From Hymenobacter metallicola (lineage in GTDB: Bacteria > Bacteroidota > Bacteroidia > Cytophagales > Hymenobacteraceae): a DNA stretch of 64,000 nt. The stretch is taken from the NCBI RefSeq assembly GCF_004745645.1, contig NZ_SRMB01000006.1:62001-126000 (forward strand), written 5' to 3'. Below, one piece after another: positions 1,800-58,430 of this stretch. Every line of letters begins with the position of its first letter. Within the stretch, counting starts at the first letter, position 1. The position numbers and the translations under genes were made by a program. The notes under the pieces were generated by a model. It worked only from the letters and a program-made list of their open reading frames with translations, searched no databases and was not told the DNA's origin.

Positions 1800-4397
1800 A
1801 TGAATGCACCCCGTGAGAACGACCCCAACGAGCTTGACCGGTTCAAGCGTGATATTGACCTCGTAGACTACGCCGAGCGGCAGGGCTACCAGGTAAAAAA
1901 GGAAGGCAAGCGCGGCGACTGGCACCAGCTCGAAAAAGACGGGGAGGTGCTCATCGTCACGCGCAAAGACGACCATCAGGTGTACCTCAATACCGGCGAC
2001 GACCGGGACAAGGGCAGCGTCATTGATTTTGCGAAAACCCGGGGCGGTGATGGCCACGGGCTGAATTTGGGGCAGGTCCGCCAGCAGCTACGCGAGTATC
2101 TGAATGACGGGCCTGCCCCAACTCGTGCCTATGCCCCGGCCGCCGACGTGACCCGGCTGAACGCGTTACCCGTTGGCAACCCCGACCACGAGCGCCAGGC
2201 CGAGGAGGACCGTCGGACGCGGCTCATCTCCGAGGTGCTGGGCGTGAAGCGGGAACTGACCGACCGCACGTACCTGCACGGCCGGGGCATCGAGGACCAG
2301 ACCATCGACAGCCCGGCTTTTCGGGGCCGCATCTTCACCGCGCAGCAGAACGAGCACAAAAACACGGCTTTCCCTTTGTACAACGCCGAGGGGCTGGCCA
2401 GCGTCGAGCAGAAGAACGAGCACTACAAAAACCTGCTTCCATTGCCTAAAAACGGCATTTGGGTATCCCACCCCACCGAGGGGAAAGGCACTCAGGTGGA
2501 GCGCATCATCGTCAGCGAATCAGCCATTGATTCGTTGTCCCACCACCAGCTGAAAAGCGGCCAGGACCAGAAAAACACCATCTACATTGCCACCAGCGGC
2601 ACACCGACCGAGGCCCAGGTAGCCCTGATTCAGCGGGTGATTGACAAGCAGGAGCCCCGGGAGGTCGTGTTGGCCAACGACCGCGACGCCGGGGGGCGGC
2701 AGTTCAACATGAACTACCTGAATGAATTGCACCCGGCCCGGCCGCTGGTGCCCGTGGCCGAGCAGGAAGCCTACAAAGAGCCAACGCGGCCGGTGGAGTG
2801 GCACGCCACCAGCGACAAGTACCACACGGGCTTGAAAGTGACCTATCACCACGACTCGGCCGAAGCCGGCGCGCAGCAGGTGCAGCAGCTTAGCGACCGG
2901 GTAGGCCAGATGAACGGCACCCAGGAAGCCGGCCCCACCATTGCCCTGGAGGTGCAGCGCAGTTCCGACCGGGAAACGGTACTGCGGTTGTCGGTGGCCA
3001 AAGCCGACACCGCGCAGTTGGAGGTGCTGACCCACGAGCTATACCGGCAGCGCGAACAGCTACGCCCGGAGCCGGAGCGCCAGCAAGAGACGTTCCTGCG
3101 GGTAGATTACCCGGTAGCAAAAGACTGGAACCGCGACCTGGAGTTAACCCGGCTGGGCCTGAATGCCGAGCAAATCCGCGCCCAGGCCCAGCGCGACGAG
3201 CAGCAGCGCGAAGCGGAGCGGCAGCAGCGCCTCGCCGAGCAGCACCGCCAGGAGCAGGAGCAGCGCCAACTGGCGCGCCAGCAGGAGCAGCAGCGCCGCG
3301 AGAGCACCCCGGAAGCTCAAGAGCAGCGCGACGCGGAAGACCGCCGATTCAATCAGGCCGTGCTGGGCGCGGCCGTCGCCAGTACCGACGCCACGCCGGA
3401 GTCGCGCCCGTTCCGCTCCTACCAGTCCGAGCAGGAAGCCGCCGCGCACACCGCGCAGTTTGTGCACGCCCGAGATGCGGGGTTGGTTTTGCTGAAAGAG
3501 TACATCAACGATAACCCCGCCCCCACCGGCCGCAAGGTGGATGAAACCGAGCAGCAGGAAAGCCGTGACCGGGCGCGCTACGCCGAACGAAACCTAGCCC
3601 CGACGCTGGCCACTGTGCCGGCCGCTGAGGAGAAAACCGCGACGTGGAAGATTGACGAAGTTGCCCCCAACACCACCGGCCGCGCCGAGGCTTGGAAGGA
3701 GGTGCTGGATAACAGCTCGTACAGCTACAAGACGAGCGAAATCCGCAGCACGATTGACGAGCAGGGCATCCGCCGCGCTGAGTTCGATATGACCTATCGT
3801 AACGACCAGCCCGATATTGCCATCATCCACGCCATCATTACGAACACCAACGCCCGGGCCGACGCCGGCCAGGAAGTATATGCCGGCGTTAGCGTCAGCG
3901 AGAGCGAGGCCGACCGTGCAGCACGCCAAGTAGTCGCCGAGGCCGCCGCCATTCAGCCCCACAACCGCGACCGGAGCATGGACCAGGCATCGGCCACGCC
4001 GGCAGCCGAGGGGTCGCCGGAGCATCGGGCCGCCGAAGCAGTCCCCGCGCCGCAGGGCGACGAGAAGCAGGTCGTTATCAAGGTGGAAGAGGTTACGCCA
4101 GCGCTGGGTGCCCGCGGCCAGGCCGAAGCCGTGAAAGAAGCCGTGGCAGGCAGCGGCGCGAAGACCGGCGATATTCAGAGTACGACTGATGCGCAGGGCA
4201 TCCGCCACTCGGAGATGAAGGTTTCGTACCGAACAGACCAGCCCGAAATTGCCCGAATCAGCCAAACGCTCGATGCCGTGGCCAGCCAGCAGGGCAGCAG
4301 CGTGATTGAGCACAGCAGCGACCGGGCCGAGCGCCGCGAAATCAGCAAGGGCTACGAAATGGCCCAGCCGCAGCGTACCCAGGAAATCACCCGGTAG
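1800..4397 (+). CDS. TOPRIM primase-like plasmid protein with repeated C-terminal domain
   Basis: An 865-residue protein. The N-terminal 100 residues resemble the zinc-ribbon region of plasmid primases and DUF3991 proteins but without the cysteines. A TOPRIM-like fold follows: VSESAIDSL with candidate acidic E240, and ANDRDAGG with D294 and D296. Residues about 455-520 are a charged Gln/Glu/Arg coiled coil. The C-terminal third holds two copies of a ~90-residue domain (about 615-710 and 758-845), each with a G-(R/Q)-AEA-(W/V)-KE helix, a T-x-D-x-QGIR turn and a strand ending in Y-R-x-DQP-(D/E)-IA. A weaker third copy may lie at about 355-425. The same domain ends the zeta toxin at 54339. Probably a conjugation-associated primase acting on the incoming strand; that role is inferred. 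Followed by a strong bidirectional terminator. Confidence 0.75.
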   Translation: MNAPRENDPNELDRFKRDIDLVDYAERQGYQVKKEGKRGDWHQLEKDGEVLIVTRKDDHQVYLNTGDDRDKGSVIDFAKTRGGDGHGLNLGQVRQQLREYLNDGPAPTRAYAPAADVTRLNALPVGNPDHERQAEEDRRTRLISEVLGVKRELTDRTYLHGRGIEDQTIDSPAFRGRIFTAQQNEHKNTAFPLYNAEGLASVEQKNEHYKNLLPLPKNGIWVSHPTEGKGTQVERIIVSESAIDSLSHHQLKSGQDQKNTIYIATSGTPTEAQVALIQRVIDKQEPREVVLANDRDAGGRQFNMNYLNELHPARPLVPVAEQEAYKEPTRPVEWHATSDKYHTGLKVTYHHDSAEAGAQQVQQLSDRVGQMNGTQEAGPTIALEVQRSSDRETVLRLSVAKADTAQLEVLTHELYRQREQLRPEPERQQETFLRVDYPVAKDWNRDLELTRLGLNAEQIRAQAQRDEQQREAERQQRLAEQHRQEQEQRQLARQQEQQRRESTPEAQEQRDAEDRRFNQAVLGAAVASTDATPESRPFRSYQSEQEAAAHTAQFVHARDAGLVLLKEYINDNPAPTGRKVDETEQQESRDRARYAERNLAPTLATVPAAEEKTATWKIDEVAPNTTGRAEAWKEVLDNSSYSYKTSEIRSTIDEQGIRRAEFDMTYRNDQPDIAIIHAIITNTNARADAGQEVYAGVSVSESEADRAARQVVAEAAAIQPHNRDRSMDQASATPAAEGSPEHRAAEAVPAPQGDEKQVVIKVEEVTPALGARGQAEAVKEAVAGSGAKTGDIQSTTDAQGIRHSEMKVSYRTDQPEIARISQTLDAVASQQGSSVIEHSSDRAERREISKGYEMAQPQRTQEITR

Positions 4398-4424
4398 CCG
4401 GGCGCTTCGCGCCCAGTTAACTGA

Positions 4425-4483
4425 CTGGCCACAACGAAAAACACCGCCCTGATTTGCAGAGCGGTGTTTTTCGTTATGGCCAG
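4425..4483. terminator. Bidirectional terminator between convergent genes
   Basis: A 23-bp inverted repeat with a single mismatch (arms 4425-4447 and 4461-4483) around a 13-base loop. Runs of A and T inside the arms give a U-rich 3' side on either strand. It separates the TOPRIM gene (+) from the SulP gene (-). Confidence 0.9.
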
Positions 4484-4490
4484 TTGGATG

Positions 4491-6035
4491 TTAATACATG
4501 ACGTTGGCTCCGGCCACGGTGTAGAGCGGGTCTTCCATAATGTTGACCTCGATGATGGAATCGGCTTTGCCCAACAGGCGGCGGCAGTCGGGGCTGAGGT
4601 GGCGCAGGTGCACGGTTTTACCGGCCCGGTGGTAGCGTTCGGTGAGCTTGTTGAGTGCCTCAATGGCCGACATGTCAGCTACGCGGCTTTCCTTGAAATC
4701 AATAATGACTTCACGCGGATCGTCGAGCACGTCGAACTTCTCGCCGAAGGCCTGGGCTGAGCCGAAGAACAGCGGTCCGTAGATTTCGTAGTGGCGCACG
4801 CCGGCTTCGTCCACGTATTTGCGGGCCCGGATGCGCTTGGCATTCTCCCAGGCAAAGACCAGGGCGGCGATAATCACGCCGATGAGCACGGCCAGGGCCA
4901 GGTTGTGCAGCAGCACGGTGATGGCCGTTACGAGCACCATGACGATGAGGTCCGACACCGGCATCTTGCCGAAGGTTTTCAGCGAGGCCCACTCGAATGT
5001 GCCCACGGCCACCATAATCATGAGGCCGGTGAGTGCCGCCATCGGGACCCGCTCGATGAGTGACGCGCCAAACATGATGAACACCAGCAGCATGACAGCC
5101 GCCACGATGCCCGAGAGCCGCGCCCGCGCCCCGGAGGAGATGTTAATCAGGCTCTGGCCAATCATGGCGCAACCGCCCATGCCGAAGAGAAAGCCCGAGG
5201 CAATGTTGGCCGCGCCCTGCGCCACGCACTCCCGGTTGGTGCTGCCCCGCGTCTCGGTGATTTCGTCAATCAGATTGAGCGTGAGTAGGCTCTCAATCAG
5301 TCCCACCCCGGCCATGATGGCCGCGTAGGGAAAAATGATGCCCAGCGTGGCCAGCGTCAGCGGCACGGCCGGGATGTGGAACGGCGGAAACCCGCCCTTG
5401 ATGGAGGCAATGTCGCCCACGGTTTTGGTCGAAATGCCTAGCCCAATTACCAGCCCGGACACTACCAGAATGGCCACCAGCGAGGCCGGTACCACTTTGG
5501 TGAGGCGCGGCAGCCCGGCAATGATGAGAATGGTGAGGCCTACCAGCCCCAGCATGGTGTAGAGGGCTGAGCCCGTGAGCCACTGGTGGGCGCCGGCCGC
5601 GTCCACGGTCTGAAACTGCACCAGCTGCGAAAGGAAGATGATAATGGCCAGTCCATTGACGAAGCCGAACATGACCGAGTGCGGCACCAACCGAATGAAC
5701 TTGCCCAGCCGCAGCACGCCGGCGGCTACCTGCAGCACGCCCGCCAGGATGACGGTGGCGAAGATGTATTCCACCCCGTGGCTTTTGGCCAGAGCCAGCA
5801 GCACCACAGCAATGGCCCCGGTGGCGCCGGATATCATGCCCGGCCGGCCGCCGATGAGCGAGGTCACGAGGCCCATGACGAAGGCCGCATACAGACCCAC
5901 CAGGGGCGAGAGGCCGGCAATGAGGGAAAAGGCCACGGCCTCCGGCACCAGGGCCAGGGCTACCGTGAGGCCCGAGAGAATTTCGTTTTTGTAACTGACT
6001 TTGTACTGACTGAAGTACTGAACTACTTGTTGCAT
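4491..6035 (-). CDS. SulP family anion transporter with STAS domain
   Basis: A 514-residue inner membrane protein of the SulP family (sulfate, bicarbonate or other anion uptake). The N-terminal half has the family signature (GLTVALALVPEAVAFSLIAG) followed by about ten to twelve hydrophobic segments. Residues about 410-490 form a cytoplasmic STAS domain (EVIIDFKESRVADMSAIEAL). Length is normal. A TAnnTTTG box on the minus strand (6169-6176) lies about 135 bp upstream and is a plausible promoter. The next gene upstream, in the same direction, is a Na+/H+ antiporter, so Na+-coupled bicarbonate uptake is a reasonable guess. Substrate cannot be read from sequence. Confidence 0.92.
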   Translation of the reverse strand: MQQVVQYFSQYKVSYKNEILSGLTVALALVPEAVAFSLIAGLSPLVGLYAAFVMGLVTSLIGGRPGMISGATGAIAVVLLALAKSHGVEYIFATVILAGVLQVAAGVLRLGKFIRLVPHSVMFGFVNGLAIIIFLSQLVQFQTVDAAGAHQWLTGSALYTMLGLVGLTILIIAGLPRLTKVVPASLVAILVVSGLVIGLGISTKTVGDIASIKGGFPPFHIPAVPLTLATLGIIFPYAAIMAGVGLIESLLTLNLIDEITETRGSTNRECVAQGAANIASGFLFGMGGCAMIGQSLINISSGARARLSGIVAAVMLLVFIMFGASLIERVPMAALTGLMIMVAVGTFEWASLKTFGKMPVSDLIVMVLVTAITVLLHNLALAVLIGVIIAALVFAWENAKRIRARKYVDEAGVRHYEIYGPLFFGSAQAFGEKFDVLDDPREVIIDFKESRVADMSAIEALNKLTERYHRAGKTVHLRHLSPDCRRLLGKADSIIEVNIMEDPLYTVAGANVMY

Positions 6036-51520: not shown

Positions 51521-51623
51521 CTAGCCGATAGGTTACGGTTGCAGCCACCAGAGACACTTTTGCCTCATCCAGTGATATCAGGCCGAAACATACGGCGAAA
51601 AAACCAGCTTGTGTAAAAGTGCG

Positions 51624-51735
51624 CAGGTTTATTACCTTAAAGAAGCAGGTTTATTACCTTAAAGAAGCAGGTTTATTCACTCAAACTCACCTTAAAGAAG
51701 CAGGTTTATTACCTTAAAGAAGCAGGTTTATTCGA
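51624..51735. repeat. Rep iterons
   Basis: Five copies of CAGGTTTATT, beginning at 51624, 51646, 51668, 51701 and 51723. Three spacings are 22 bp and one is 33 bp, i.e. multiples of the DNA helical turn. Most copies are followed by ACCTTAAAGAAG. Confidence 0.93.
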
Positions 51736-54004: not shown

Positions 54005-54111
54005 CCCCTCTTTCAGTACCTGCTGGCCGGTTGCTGCGCTCATTTTCTTTGGCACAATGCCACTACTTTACCGGCGCTTGCGTTATATTCGTGTACCCTT
54101 TGCCTCCTGCC

Positions 54112-54339
54112 ATGAACTCCCCAGTAACCAACTTTCTCGCCCAGCTGACGACGCCGGAGTTTCAGAAATCCATTGGGGAGCAGTTGCGCGCTGAGGCCGC
54201 CGCCGCGAACACCTTCCTCTCCTACCGGGACGAGCAAGGCCGCTACGTGCACGAATACCCTGCCACCGGCGAGGTGTACGAGGTTTCGCTGACCCAGCCA
54301 CAGACGCGCCGGCTACTGCTTGACGCTGTAGGGGCCTAG
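54112..54339 (+). CDS. Putative antitoxin of the zeta toxin
   Basis: A 75-residue protein starting at ATG 54112. It is helical at first (NFLAQLTTPEFQKSIGEQLR) with a strand-rich YRDEQGRYVHEYPATGEVYE part. Its stop TAG overlaps the GTG start of the zeta gene by one base (TAGTG), as in tightly coupled toxin-antitoxin pairs. No similarity to classical epsilon was noticed; the antitoxin role rests on position. A TAnnnTTTGC box lies just upstream. Confidence 0.55.
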   Translation: MNSPVTNFLAQLTTPEFQKSIGEQLRAEAAAANTFLSYRDEQGRYVHEYPATGEVYEVSLTQPQTRRLLLDAVGA

Positions 54340-55319
54340 TGAGCGAAGTGCGGCCGGTGGAGCAGCAACCAGTACTCTATGTATTCGCCGGCCCAAACGG
54401 CGCTGGGAAAAGCACCTTGTTCAACGCAATGGCGGCTCGTAGTCCATCGGTGGAACAGGTGAACGGCGACGTACTGAAACAGCAGAACCCCCAACTCAGC
54501 GGCTTTGACGTGGAGGCGATGACCGCCCAGCGCATCAAAGAGCTACGTGACAGCAGGGTTTCTTTCTCGGTCGAGAGCAACTTAGCCCAGACCAATGACT
54601 ACAAACTGATTCATGGCGCGAAAGCCGCCGGCTACCGCGTTGAGTTGGTGTACGTCAGCTTGGAGTCGGTGCGCGAGTGCCAGGACCGGGTACTGAGCCG
54701 CGTAGCCAAGGGCGGGCACGACGTGCCCCCGGCCATCATCGAGCAGCGGTACCACCAGTCCCTTTCCCTGCTAAAGCAGAACTACAAGGAATTTGACCGC
54801 ATCGAGCTGATAGACAATACCAGTCGTCCATTTCAGCCGGGTGCGCTCATCGAAAAGGGCCTGATAGCTCCTTTGCAGTCACCGCCGCCGGAGTGGGTGA
54901 AGGGTGTCGTGACCCATGTCCAACGGATGGAACGGGTTAACCAGTTTTTAGCCCAACCGGCAGCGGACATGCAGCAGGCAACTATCCGGGTTACGGAAGC
55001 AGCGCGGGCACCCGGTGCCCGCGGCCAGGCCGAGGCAGTACAAGCGGCCGTTCGCATGAGCGGAGCACAGGTAAGCGACGTGCAGCCCGCCGCGGCGTCA
55101 GAGCAGGGCCAGCGGGTTAGCTATCTGAACGTGCAGTACAGCTTGAAAAGCCCGGAGCTAGAGCGCATCAGCACCACGCTTGACGCGGTGCATCGGCAGT
55201 CGGGCAGTGAAGTGATGGAAAGCGCTAAAGACCAGCAGCGCCGCCAGGCCCCAGGCCAGGCGCGGGAGGCCGGGCAAAGCCAGGCAACTGAGCGTGGCCA
55301 GGACCAGCAGGAGCGCTGA
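54339..55319 (+). CDS. Zeta toxin family kinase with added C-terminal domain
   Basis: A 326-residue protein starting at GTG 54339. Residues 12-190 form a zeta toxin fold: FAGPNGAGKST (Walker A, 18-26), QVNGDVLKQQNP, SVESNLA and RVAKGGHDVPPAIIEQRYHQ. Zeta toxins phosphorylate UDP-N-acetylglucosamine or related sugars and stop wall synthesis. Residues about 212-302 are a domain like the repeats of the TOPRIM protein at 1800 (GARGQAEAVQAAV, then SPELERISTTLDAV). The tail is Gln/Arg-rich and disordered. It lies just before the partition operon, as epsilon-zeta does in pSM19035-type plasmids. Confidence 0.88.
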   Translation: MSEVRPVEQQPVLYVFAGPNGAGKSTLFNAMAARSPSVEQVNGDVLKQQNPQLSGFDVEAMTAQRIKELRDSRVSFSVESNLAQTNDYKLIHGAKAAGYRVELVYVSLESVRECQDRVLSRVAKGGHDVPPAIIEQRYHQSLSLLKQNYKEFDRIELIDNTSRPFQPGALIEKGLIAPLQSPPPEWVKGVVTHVQRMERVNQFLAQPAADMQQATIRVTEAARAPGARGQAEAVQAAVRMSGAQVSDVQPAAASEQGQRVSYLNVQYSLKSPELERISTTLDAVHRQSGSEVMESAKDQQRRQAPGQAREAGQSQATERGQDQQER

Positions 55320-55552: not shown

Positions 55553-56116
55553 CTATTTACTTTCCGCTGGCTTAGCCGGTAGCTTGCCCTGCTTGCGCAG
55601 CTGCGCTTCGTAGTGCCGATGGGCGGCGACCAGGTACGCCTTTATGCTGACCGGGCTATCCTCCCCTTTGGGTAGCAGCACCAGCGACAGGCGAATCTCA
55701 TTCCAGACGCTTTCCGGGATTTTTACCGAGCGCTCGGTTTCCATCAGCACGGCATCCGGGGCGGCCGGCTTGCGCCCACGCCGGGGCCGCGCAGCGGGGC
55801 TAGCTATTGGAGCGGCTGCCGGCAGTGTGGGGGCCACCGTGGCCATCGCCTGAACAGGCGGTGCTGGCTGGCTGGTCGATGCAGCTGCAGGCTCAGGAGC
55901 CGCTGCGGGAGCCGGCGTTGGCTCCGGAGCCAACGGCGCATCGACCGGAGCCAGTGGGGCTACTGCAGGGTCGGCTACCGCCGGCGCAGCGTCAGCAGCC
56001 GTGGCACTGGCTGATTTGACCAGCTCCCCATCCATGCCTGCCCGGGCCTGATTCCGTCGCTCAGCAGAAACGGGAATACGCTGCCGAGGCTCGATTTTCG
56101 GTTTCTCGATACCCAT
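55553..56116 (-). CDS. Putative centromere-binding protein with RHH-like domain
   Basis: A 187-residue protein, 3 bp downstream of parA. Residues about 35-108 are Ala/Pro-rich and disordered. A basic AT-hook-like patch (RPRRGRKP, 110-117) precedes a ribbon-helix-helix-like domain, RSVKIPESVWNEIRLSLVLL followed by SPVSIKAYLVAAHRHYEAQL (129-173). RHH proteins such as omega and ParG bind short tandem repeats and recruit ParA; here the octamer array at 56960-57450 is the obvious target. It is also similar in plan to DUF3408 proteins of Bacteroides transfer elements. Confidence 0.65.
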   Translation of the reverse strand: MGIEKPKIEPRQRIPVSAERRNQARAGMDGELVKSASATAADAAPAVADPAVAPLAPVDAPLAPEPTPAPAAAPEPAAASTSQPAPPVQAMATVAPTLPAAAPIASPAARPRRGRKPAAPDAVLMETERSVKIPESVWNEIRLSLVLLPKGEDSPVSIKAYLVAAHRHYEAQLRKQGKLPAKPAESK

Positions 56117-56119
56117 TGC

Positions 56120-56896
56120 TTAGTTGGTTTTAGTGGTTGACGTATCGGCCGACTCGCTGATCTGGCTCCCGGCTTTGCGCTGGGGCAAGCCCAGGCGTTC
56201 TATTAGTTCCTCACACACGCGGCGTATTTCGGCATCCGTGTCCTTGTTGCCGCCAGCGTAGGTGCGGTAGGTAGGGTTGAGCAAGCTATAGAGCGTCGAG
56301 GCCCGGCTGTAGGCGGTGCGCAGGCCCAGGGAGGAGTTGAGGCGCGAGAGGCCCAGCCCGTCTATGTACTCATCCATGTCCTTTTCTTCCCGCCGGCCGG
56401 CAACGCGCTTGGTTGGGAGGCCGAAGTATTGAAAATCCAGTTGGGCTTCCTCCGCAGACTGCTTGATAGCTTCCAGAATGCCCATAAACTCCGCCGTAGA
56501 GGCCCGGTCCAGGTAATCCGATACCAGGGGCACAATTACCGCGTCGCAGGCCGTGAGCGCGTTGAAAACATCGTCGCCATCGGCCCGGCCGGGTACGTCG
56601 ATGATGATAAGGTCGTAATCCTGATTATCGGGATTGTCGATGAACTCGAAAATCTTATCCAGGGCCAGCGGGAATACATCGTAGGGGTACTTAGCCGCCG
56701 GGTCGGTTTTCTGAAGGTTAGCTAGGTTGTGCGCGTCCAGCTGAGCACGGGTTTTGACGATGCTCTGCTGATAGTCGCAATCCAGAACGGCAATCTTTAG
56801 CCCATACTCAGTGGCCAGGGGAGCGGCGAGCACGAGTAGCAGGGTTGATTTACCGGAGCCGCCTTTTTGAGTGGCAAAGCTGATAATTTTGGGCAT
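56120..56896 (-). CDS. parA: ParA family partition ATPase
   Basis: A 258-residue Walker-type ATPase with the deviant P-loop KGGSGKST (11-18), AVLDCDYQQS and DLIIIDVPGRADGD. It drives plasmid segregation by gradients on the nucleoid. The long gene-free stretch upstream carries the repeat array, and the RHH-like gene follows, the layout of type Ib partition loci. Confidence 0.93.
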   Translation of the reverse strand: MPKIISFATQKGGSGKSTLLLVLAAPLATEYGLKIAVLDCDYQQSIVKTRAQLDAHNLANLQKTDPAAKYPYDVFPLALDKIFEFIDNPDNQDYDLIIIDVPGRADGDDVFNALTACDAVIVPLVSDYLDRASTAEFMGILEAIKQSAEEAQLDFQYFGLPTKRVAGRREEKDMDEYIDGLGLSRLNSSLGLRTAYSRASTLYSLLNPTYRTYAGGNKDTDAEIRRVCEELIERLGLPQRKAGSQISESADTSTTKTN

Positions 56897-56959
56897 GGGT
56901 TTACTGGTTAGGGTTAAAGAACTTTACGCCGGGTGGTCAGTCAGGCGGATAGCGCAAAC

Positions 56960-57450
56960 ATACATAGAAAGTGGCGAAGTAGTTACGTGGCGAAGTAGCG
57001 ATGAGGTGAGGTAGTTAAGTAGCGACGTAGCGATAAATCTAAGTATTTAAGTAGCGATGTAGTGAAGTAGCGAATTAAATATGGTGATAAAGGGTAGCGA
57101 AGTAGTCAAGTGGTGAAGTAGCGAAAAAATGAGAACATTGATATAGCGTCGGTAGCGAAGTAGTCAGGTAGCGAAGTAGTGAAGAAATGCCAATGAACTA
57201 ACAATTTAAGTAGCGAAGTAGCGAAGTAGCCAAGTAGTGAGGTAGTGAATAATCAGATAGTACGTTGCAATGCCATTAGGTTTATAGGTAGCGATGTAGT
57301 CAAGTAGCGAGGTAGCGAAGAAATTAAATGATAGCTTGATGTTTAATTTTTATAGGTAGCGAAGTAGTTAAGTAGCGAGGTAGCGAATACTGATGCAATA
57401 GATGTAATCAGAGGATTGTTTAAAGTAGCGAAGTGGTGAAGTAGTGAGTA
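56960..57450. repeat. Octamer array, predicted centromere
   Basis: Eight clusters of tandem 8-bp units of consensus (A/G)GTAGCGA (variants AGTAGTGA, AGTAGTCA, AGTAGTTA). Most clusters hold four units, one has five; cluster centres lie about 50-85 bp apart with AT-rich DNA between. Examples: 57290-57325 and 57354-57388. The units are all in the same orientation. The array fills most of the 1-kb stretch between parA and the mobilization genes. Confidence 0.85.
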
Positions 57451-57745
57451 AATGATTAAAGAGGGATTACAGCGTCACCAAGGGGTTTCTAGCAGAAAGG
57501 TGAAAAGCGGTTAGTAAAAGGCCACGCAGGCTCTTCTCCCAATAGCCCAATTGGTGCAACATATCAAATAGAAGGTGGCGCATCAGAAAAGAAGGAGAGC
57601 CCCAGTCCGGGCTGTGGGGTAGTAATTCTAACTAGTAGCTTAGCGGTAGTCTTAGCAATAGTGGCAGCTGGTGATTTCACGGCCGTAGACAACATCGGGC
57701 AGGCAAAGCCGTAATGATATTCGTTCACTTCTTTTTAGCAAGAAG

Positions 57746-57809
57746 AGTAACACAAACACAGCGCTAAAGCACTGTATTTGTGTTACTTGAATTTCAGCAG
57801 AGCTGAAAT
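57746..57809. other. oriT-like region: two inverted repeats before the mobilization genes
   Basis: A 16-bp inverted repeat with one mismatch (57746-57761 and 57772-57787) is followed by a perfect 8-bp one (57791-57798 and 57802-57809). They lie 100-160 bp before the BfmA-like and relaxase genes, where a transfer origin is expected. The nick site cannot be named. Bases 57451-57745 hold nothing I recognise. Confidence 0.55.
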
Positions 57810-57905
57810 AATGTGACTATTATACTTAATAGTCTGATATACAGTATGTATTTGCTCACAAGATATCGTTGAATCGTAGTTTTAGCCACTGTTTCAGTTG
57901 TAGAA

Positions 57906-58430
57906 ATGGCCAAAGAGCAGAAGCCGCAGATTCGGGTAAATGCAACCAGCCATAGGGCCGCCGCGAAAGCCGCCACCCGGCTGAAAATGAGTCTTGGTGA
58001 ATACACTGAGGCAGCGTTGGACTACTTCACAAGCCGGCAACTCAACCCAGCGGACGATGTGGCCCGCGAGGGTCAGCTAATCATGCAGCAGGTGAAGAAG
58101 CTAGGCGACCGGGTTTTCAGCTATATGCAGGAGGAGGAGCGCAGCTTACTACTCCCCATGCTGGAAGAAATGCTGCGGTCCCGTATCACGCTGGAGCGGG
58201 TTCTACGGATGAATGAAATCCTGGTAAACAACCTGAATGGCCAGTTGAGCCTACTCAATGAAGGACAATTGGCGGCGCACCGGGAGACGCTAAAGAAGCT
58301 ACGGCAGCAGAATGACGAGGCCATAGAGCGTCAGCTAAAAGAGGCGCTGACCGGTGCTCAATCCATTAGTTCAGGCAAGACAGTAGGGGAGGGGCAGCCG
58401 GGTAAAAAGGATACCGAACCGAGTAGCTAA
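57906..58430 (+). CDS. BfmA/BtgA-like mobilization protein
   Basis: A 174-residue protein. The N-terminus is RHH-like (QIRVNATSHRAAAKAATRLK; MSLGEYTEAALDYFTSRQ), followed by a long helical part. It resembles BfmA/BtgA, the accessory DNA-binding component of Bacteroides relaxosomes. The relaxase gene starts 7 bp after its stop, so the two form a unit. Confidence 0.85.
   Translation: MAKEQKPQIRVNATSHRAAAKAATRLKMSLGEYTEAALDYFTSRQLNPADDVAREGQLIMQQVKKLGDRVFSYMQEEERSLLLPMLEEMLRSRITLERVLRMNEILVNNLNGQLSLLNEGQLAAHRETLKKLRQQNDEAIERQLKEALTGAQSISSGKTVGEGQPGKKDTEPSS

Follow-up and report, generated by a model that had tools for sequence, protein, structure and literature searches.

Upstream of the plasmid-borne parA gene of Hymenobacter metallicola lies an array of 36 octamer slots, arranged in eight clusters and every one in the same orientation (positions 56970-57447 of the window, i.e., the whole stretch of 64,000 nucleotides analyzed here). 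This array very probably acts as the centromere (parS) in a type Ib-like ParABS module that comprises, along with the array, a small ParA and a putative RHH partner. The preliminary description had proposed the centromere of a ParA/RHH system, and comparison with relatives supports this well: essentially every close homologue of parA has an array upstream, which persists where the mob genes are reduced to a relic and is better conserved than its spacers, and the partner is predicted to contain an RHH domain. This assignment gives a likely function to a protein labelled hypothetical in most of the plasmid records examined and to its DNA site; no account of such a system in Hymenobacter was found in the open-licence literature. 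On the plasmid, parA and the partner gene run leftward and are followed by a zeta-like gene in the opposite orientation and a Rep3 initiator gene, and the mob operon runs rightward; this layout recurs in most related plasmids.

The octamer unit, read on the parA-sense strand, is CTACTTCG. The window has 22 exact copies of RGTAGCGA, the form on the opposite strand, compared to 2.7 expected, a count that none of 100 shuffles attains, and 17 of the 22 copies, throughout on the plus strand, sit at 56994-57431; the degenerate forms GTAGTGA, GTAGTCA, GTAGTTA, and GTGGCGA, added to the exact copies, make up the 36 slots. The array's own weight matrix yields 28 forward and no reverse matches over the 900 bp upstream of parA, and all 5 occurrences of a 24-bp three-octamer pattern in the whole 5.94-Mb genome fall inside the array. 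The GC content of the array region is 0.37-0.44, compared to 0.55-0.65 in the surroundings.

Proximal to parA is an octamer run of 8 + 4 slots in a single 8-bp register (56970-57073, plus strand), with a first cluster of 8 slots, one of them degenerate, at 56970-57033, and a second cluster of 4 slots, the first degenerate, at 57042-57073, in register with the former. Further away, likewise on the plus strand, are clusters of four octamers at 57093-57124 (GGTAGCGA AGTAGTCA AGTGGTGA AGTAGCGA) and 57151-57182, of five at 57209-57248, of four at 57287-57318 and 57355-57386, and, most distant from parA, of three at 57424-57447. The array noted previously is thus real, in a single orientation, and was placed to within 10 bp. 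The statement that clusters mostly contain four octamers holds for five of the eight; the other three have 8, 5, and 3, and the pair closest to parA is a single, longer run in register. The cluster centers are 50-90 bp apart and, judged by eye, display no clear preference in helical phasing.

The parA gene (56120-56896, minus strand) encodes a deviant Walker-A ATPase of 258 aa, with KGGSGKS at residues 11-17 and without an N-terminal HTH (Pfam AAA_31, E 6.7e-16), the homologues of which are 65-80% identical. Type Ib systems are recognized by a small ParA that has a deviant Walker A motif and lacks a DNA-binding domain at its N-terminus, which is what this protein is, by a short-repeat centromere upstream of the par operon, for which the array is the candidate site, and by a gene downstream of parA for a small RHH protein that binds the centromere and has a flexible N-terminus, for which the partner gene is the candidate. 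The TAnnTTTG sequence is the promoter box of Bacteroidota, and a putative parA promoter matching it, TATGTTTG, is located at 56955-56962 on the minus strand, 7 bp past the last octamer. Within 160 nt of parA, TAnnTTTG is found in 51 of 53 loci compared to 4.1 expected; in most loci, it starts 0-7 bp past the last octamer and, in some, overlaps the array. Because the array ends near this conserved box, autorepression is likely: given this position of the long run and the precedent of the RHH ParB of pSM19035, which represses its own promoters (PMC9499535), the partner would also repress its own operon.

The ParB-like partner gene, next to parA (55553-56116, minus strand), encodes an unannotated protein of 187 aa. 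The N-terminus carries a conserved basic motif, PRxRIPVSEEARxQARAGMGGE, in which R13 is invariant and R21 and R25 are nearly so, making them candidates for the N-terminal arginine with which type Ib partners stimulate the ATPase of ParA, followed by an Ala/Pro-rich linker, an RRGRKP patch, and a conserved C-terminal domain (residues about 128-176) with a beta-alpha-alpha, RHH-like arrangement. In the AlphaFold model, this domain consists of an extended strand and two helices (pLDDT about 81-90; domain mean 81), and the linker is disordered. The best structural match of the domain is the RHH ParB of pCXC100 (3no7; Z 5.9, rmsd 4.8 Å, 58 aligned residues, 12% identity), followed by the RHH antitoxin ParD2 (Z 4.7 and 4.3); for a 60-residue domain, a Z score of 5.9 with an rmsd of 4.8 Å represents a modest match. 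Foldseek searches detected no significant match for the C-terminal domain alone and only noise for the full-length model, the latter because the linker is disordered. Sequence comparison with Pfam and PDB gave no match, and none of the known ParB and RHH families is detectably related in sequence. The RHH-like domain recognized in the preliminary description agrees with both the predicted structure and its match to an RHH ParB, and the C-terminal domain is likely to adopt the RHH fold. The AT-hook-like patch fared differently: the window protein contains only RRGRKP, with no GRP core and no match to Pfam AT_hook. A true AT-hook, RGRPP, is found in the partner of a diverged sister clade (locus L016; Pfam E 0.013). 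In this clade (L016, L154-L176), ParA identity is about 40% and the octamer array is degenerate and weak.

To compare upstream regions across relatives, a cyclic repeat model with periods of 5-14 was fitted to the 900 bp preceding parA homologues, in a set of 115 unique regions. Period 8 wins in essentially all close-clade Hymenobacteraceae loci and in many more distant ones, with scores above 0 in 72 and above -20 in 92 of the 115 regions; the best control scores are -53.9 among 230 dinucleotide shuffles and -48.8 among 390 windows taken elsewhere in these loci. The array in the window scores +111 at period 8 and -57 at period 7 and thus does not match the 7-bp WATCACW repeats of the omega family. 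Among the close relatives, nearly all carry an array upstream of parA, in the same position and with the exact 8-bp step. The period is kept and the octamer sequence is not: it varies by plasmid lineage, with at least 10 octamer types among the compared loci. A search for the octamer near parA in other Hymenobacter plasmids, as suggested earlier, hence recovers 8-bp arrays in the same place, with sequences that differ between lineages. The array DNA has no match among PLSDB plasmids because octamers and spacers both diverge. To call the array a new version of omega-type heptads appears fair, given the exact 8-bp step and the clusters of about four in most lineages. No period-8 array was detected upstream of the ParA relatives in Flammeovirga and Flexithrix (L062, L063, L071, L074-L077) or in Bacteroides pBF9343 (L020).

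Comparison with near-identical plasmids of other species indicates that octamers evolve more slowly than spacers, i.e., are under constraint. Substitutions between the window and L022 affect 14 of 306 octamer and 57 of 325 spacer positions (Fisher P 1.4e-7), with 14/306 and 31/325 for L024 (P 0.02) and 22/306 and 73/324 for L131 (P 5e-8). Length changes within clusters in these comparisons amount to exactly 8 bp, that is, one octamer; in particular, the five-octamer cluster at 57209-57248 has one octamer more than its counterparts in all three plasmids. In H. psychrophilus (L023), a transposase-containing, IS-like insertion of about 1 kb, at about 3700-4700 of this locus, splits the array, and all octamers are kept. 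A loss of half of this array was considered and ruled out: the insertion displaced the distal clusters from the aligned stretch, and all of them are present.

Across lineages, most arrays combine one long run beside parA with a small number of distal clusters. Among 217 detected runs, which are not independent given that many loci share ancestry, the mode is four octamers (73 runs), followed by five (35) and six (30), and 16 runs are shorter than four. Although runs of one or two octamers are under-detected, planted three-octamer runs were recovered in 95-97% and two-octamer runs in 55-85% of the cases for high-information types, so that the scarcity of short runs is real in these types and less certain in low-information ones. 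In pSM19035, a stable ParA-ParB complex and activation of the ATPase need at least 4 contiguous repeats (PMC9499535), the working unit in that system. The agreement between this minimum and the mode of four is suggestive, and we infer that the two may be causally linked; the recurrent four-repeat clusters would then be the evolutionary counterpart of the four-repeat need for ParA activation in vitro.

Other roles for the array have to be weighed against that of a centromere. The array could belong to mobilization, as a segment of oriT or as an operator for the divergent mob operon, which starts at 57906, runs rightward, and encodes a BfmA/BtgA-like protein, the supposed ligand, a DUF5712 relaxase, and a TraG/VirD4 coupling protein. 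Indeed, in nearly all relatives the mob operon and parA flank the array, and partition proteins can bind close to oriT and influence transfer (PMC12421886). However, a separate oriT-like element is located on the mob side, at 57746-57787 with flanks (about 57700-57830), and consists of a short inverted repeat, CAGCTCTGCTG, then a longer hairpin, the sequence of which varies, and finally TCTTCTTGCTA; the same combination recurs upstream of mob in 106 of the 128 loci and likely represents the oriT for the DUF5712 (MOB-B type) relaxase family. Furthermore, plasmid DG25B (L006) retains parA, the partner gene, and the array, with the mob gene reduced to a relic of 49 aa, and the array abuts the parA promoter and varies in sequence with the par partner. 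Given the mob-relic plasmid that keeps the array, the separate oriT-like element, and the promoter box beside the array, the latter is best assigned to parA, and a mobilization role appears improbable. It appears just as improbable that the octamers serve solely as operators for parA transcription, with partition occurring at another site. The short distance between the last octamer and the promoter box, 0-7 bp in most loci, would suit an operator, but the clusters reach 480 bp upstream, far beyond the need of a repressor, their architecture is conserved, and in characterized type Ib systems the same sites do both jobs (PMC9499535, PMC5016525). Least probable of all is that the octamers are replication iterons for the Rep3-family initiator, the gene for which is on the same plasmid (50387-51520) and follows the partner gene in several relatives, given that rep has its own iterons directly upstream, in the form of perfect 22-bp direct repeats (51623-51732), and the octamers track parA and the partner across plasmids with little or no similarity in rep.

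If the array is the centromere, partner dimers would grip successive octamers via a beta-strand at the N-terminal end of their RHH domains and align side by side along each cluster, with each dimer probably taking up 8 bp. By analogy with pSM19035, at least 4 contiguous bound dimers per cluster would present their flexible N-terminal peptides to nucleoid-bound ParA, and the clustered partner would trigger the ParA ATPase, such that the plasmid follows the receding ParA. The octamer sequence would act as a specificity label on a constant 8-bp step and cluster design, so that co-resident plasmids are not confused.

Among known systems, delta/omega/parS of pSM19035 resembles this module in having a small ParA, a small RHH centromere-binding protein with a flexible N-terminus (RHH being predicted here), tandem non-palindromic repeats at the par promoter, and a working unit of four or more contiguous repeats, to which the commonest cluster size here, about four, corresponds. 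The two differ in the step (7 bp vs 8 bp, with a single orientation in the window's type) and in the layout, with separate sites of 7-10 contiguous repeats in pSM19035 and seven or eight clusters with AT-rich spacers within one 480-bp site here. Moreover, parA and the partner gene form one operon, the partner is a protein of about 187 aa with an Ala/Pro linker, and no sequence similarity was found between omega and the window partner. ParB of pCXC100, the closest structural match, acts on a centromere described as consisting of direct repeats only (PMC5016525). The comparison covers the protein domain, at only 12% identity over the 58 aligned residues. The parH site of TP228 mixes direct and inverted repeats and has another repeat unit, whereas the window array has one orientation; nevertheless, ParF-ParG-parH shares with it an RHH protein (a predicted one here), in TP228 with a mobile N-terminus, and AT-rich spacers between repeats. 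Such spacers are thought to aid cooperative binding (PMC5016525). In the ParMRC systems of Clostridium perfringens, an RHH adaptor is paired with a centromere made of direct repeats; these centromeres differ from one family to another and determine incompatibility, as demonstrated experimentally for the ParR families, so that related plasmids coexist (PMC9426499). Unlike here, the motor of ParMRC is the actin-like ParM rather than a Walker-type ParA, and the repeats vary in length and spacing too.

The octamer type tracks the predicted DNA-contacting beta-strand of the partner, with RSVKIP paired with CTACTTCG, HTVQIA with TTCTGcwn, KGVRIA with aCkACTTT, HSVKLS with TCTACTTT, QHVRMS with AywtrTta, and KNVRLL with TTATAA. 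Four branches of the ParA tree carry the S-x-K strand, each with an octamer core resembling CTACTT, and a G-x-R clade with an altered octamer is nested among them. This pattern is consistent with a recognition code, with ancestry as a confounder: similarity between octamer matrices correlates with whole-domain identity (0.48), ParA identity (0.47), and the best strand position (0.50), and column-wise correlation does not separate the strand positions from ancestry.

The H. metallicola genome contains two systems, on contigs C11 and C13, the latter with an array of the TTCTGCAN type, and the arrays do not cross-match (1 weight-matrix match vs 0.6 by chance in one direction and 2 vs 4.7 in the other). 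Among 13 genomes with at least two systems, none of the 19 co-resident pairs shares an octamer type, compared to 4.1 expected (P 0.007); same-type pairs in genome G102, which are 99.9% identical duplications in one contig, were taken as assembly dimers and counted once. This pattern fits partition-based incompatibility, to which replication or other incompatibility could contribute, and different octamers on a shared 8-bp rhythm with four-repeat blocks would explain how several such plasmids reside in one cell. There is perhaps an even chance that the centromeres and RHH proteins of Hymenobacteraceae plasmids form naturally occurring, mutually orthogonal pairs: the 8-bp step and the module of four octamers, the ParA-activating unit, would stay fixed, the letters would switch with a few beta-strand residues, and each switch would create a new compatibility group. 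The approximately ten natural octamer types on one scaffold offer a ready series for the study of RHH specificity change and the origin of incompatibility groups, and vectors for Bacteroidota could use the centromere-partner pairs as mutually compatible maintenance modules.

Beyond the close clade, 8-bp periodicity extends, unevenly, to a second Hymenobacter ParA family (L019, L065, L066, L070, L190), whose partners (L019, L065, L066) show no significant profile similarity to the window partner, and to ParA-DUF3408 pairs; it is strong in some loci, such as L090 (+92) and L190 (+64), and weak or absent in others. The ParA-DUF3408 pairs of ICE-type loci (L080-L093, L180-L192; Flavobacteria and others) resemble the window module in that a ParA gene precedes one for a small protein with a strand-helix-helix-like C-terminus, and many display upstream 8-bp periodicity, sometimes with a 4- or 6-bp sub-period. 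Unlike the window partner, these proteins match Pfam DUF3408 (E 5e-36), and the profile comparison between the two is not significant: neither the window partner nor any of 32 aligned relatives matches DUF3408 (PF11888), with an hhalign probability of 0.4%. Their periodic arrays are also weaker and, in some loci, absent. A strong octamer array (AAATCTTG) upstream of such a pair occurs on a contig of a Sulfuricurvum MAG (L090) and reflects either cross-phylum transfer from or to this Campylobacterota-labelled bin or a misbinned contig.

The parS sites bound by omega are located at the promoters of genes under its control, and in pSM19035 omega, epsilon, and zeta are under shared control. The parallel drawn in the preliminary description with the epsilon-zeta and delta-omega grouping does not hold here: the zeta-toxin-like kinase gene (54339-55319) runs opposite to parA, has no octamers nearby, and adjoins the par genes only in the window's plasmid subtype, lying 3-5 kb off in some other plasmids and going undetected in the fetched flanks of most. 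A small gene upstream of the kinase gene (54031-54339), with a weak match to DUF7462, may encode its antitoxin; outside the window's subtype, these two genes are not conserved as a pair. In Hymenobacter sp. BRD67 (L017), a tandem 20-bp repeat, CTGCTACCTGGCTAACTACC, is found upstream of parA, adjoining the oriT-like element.
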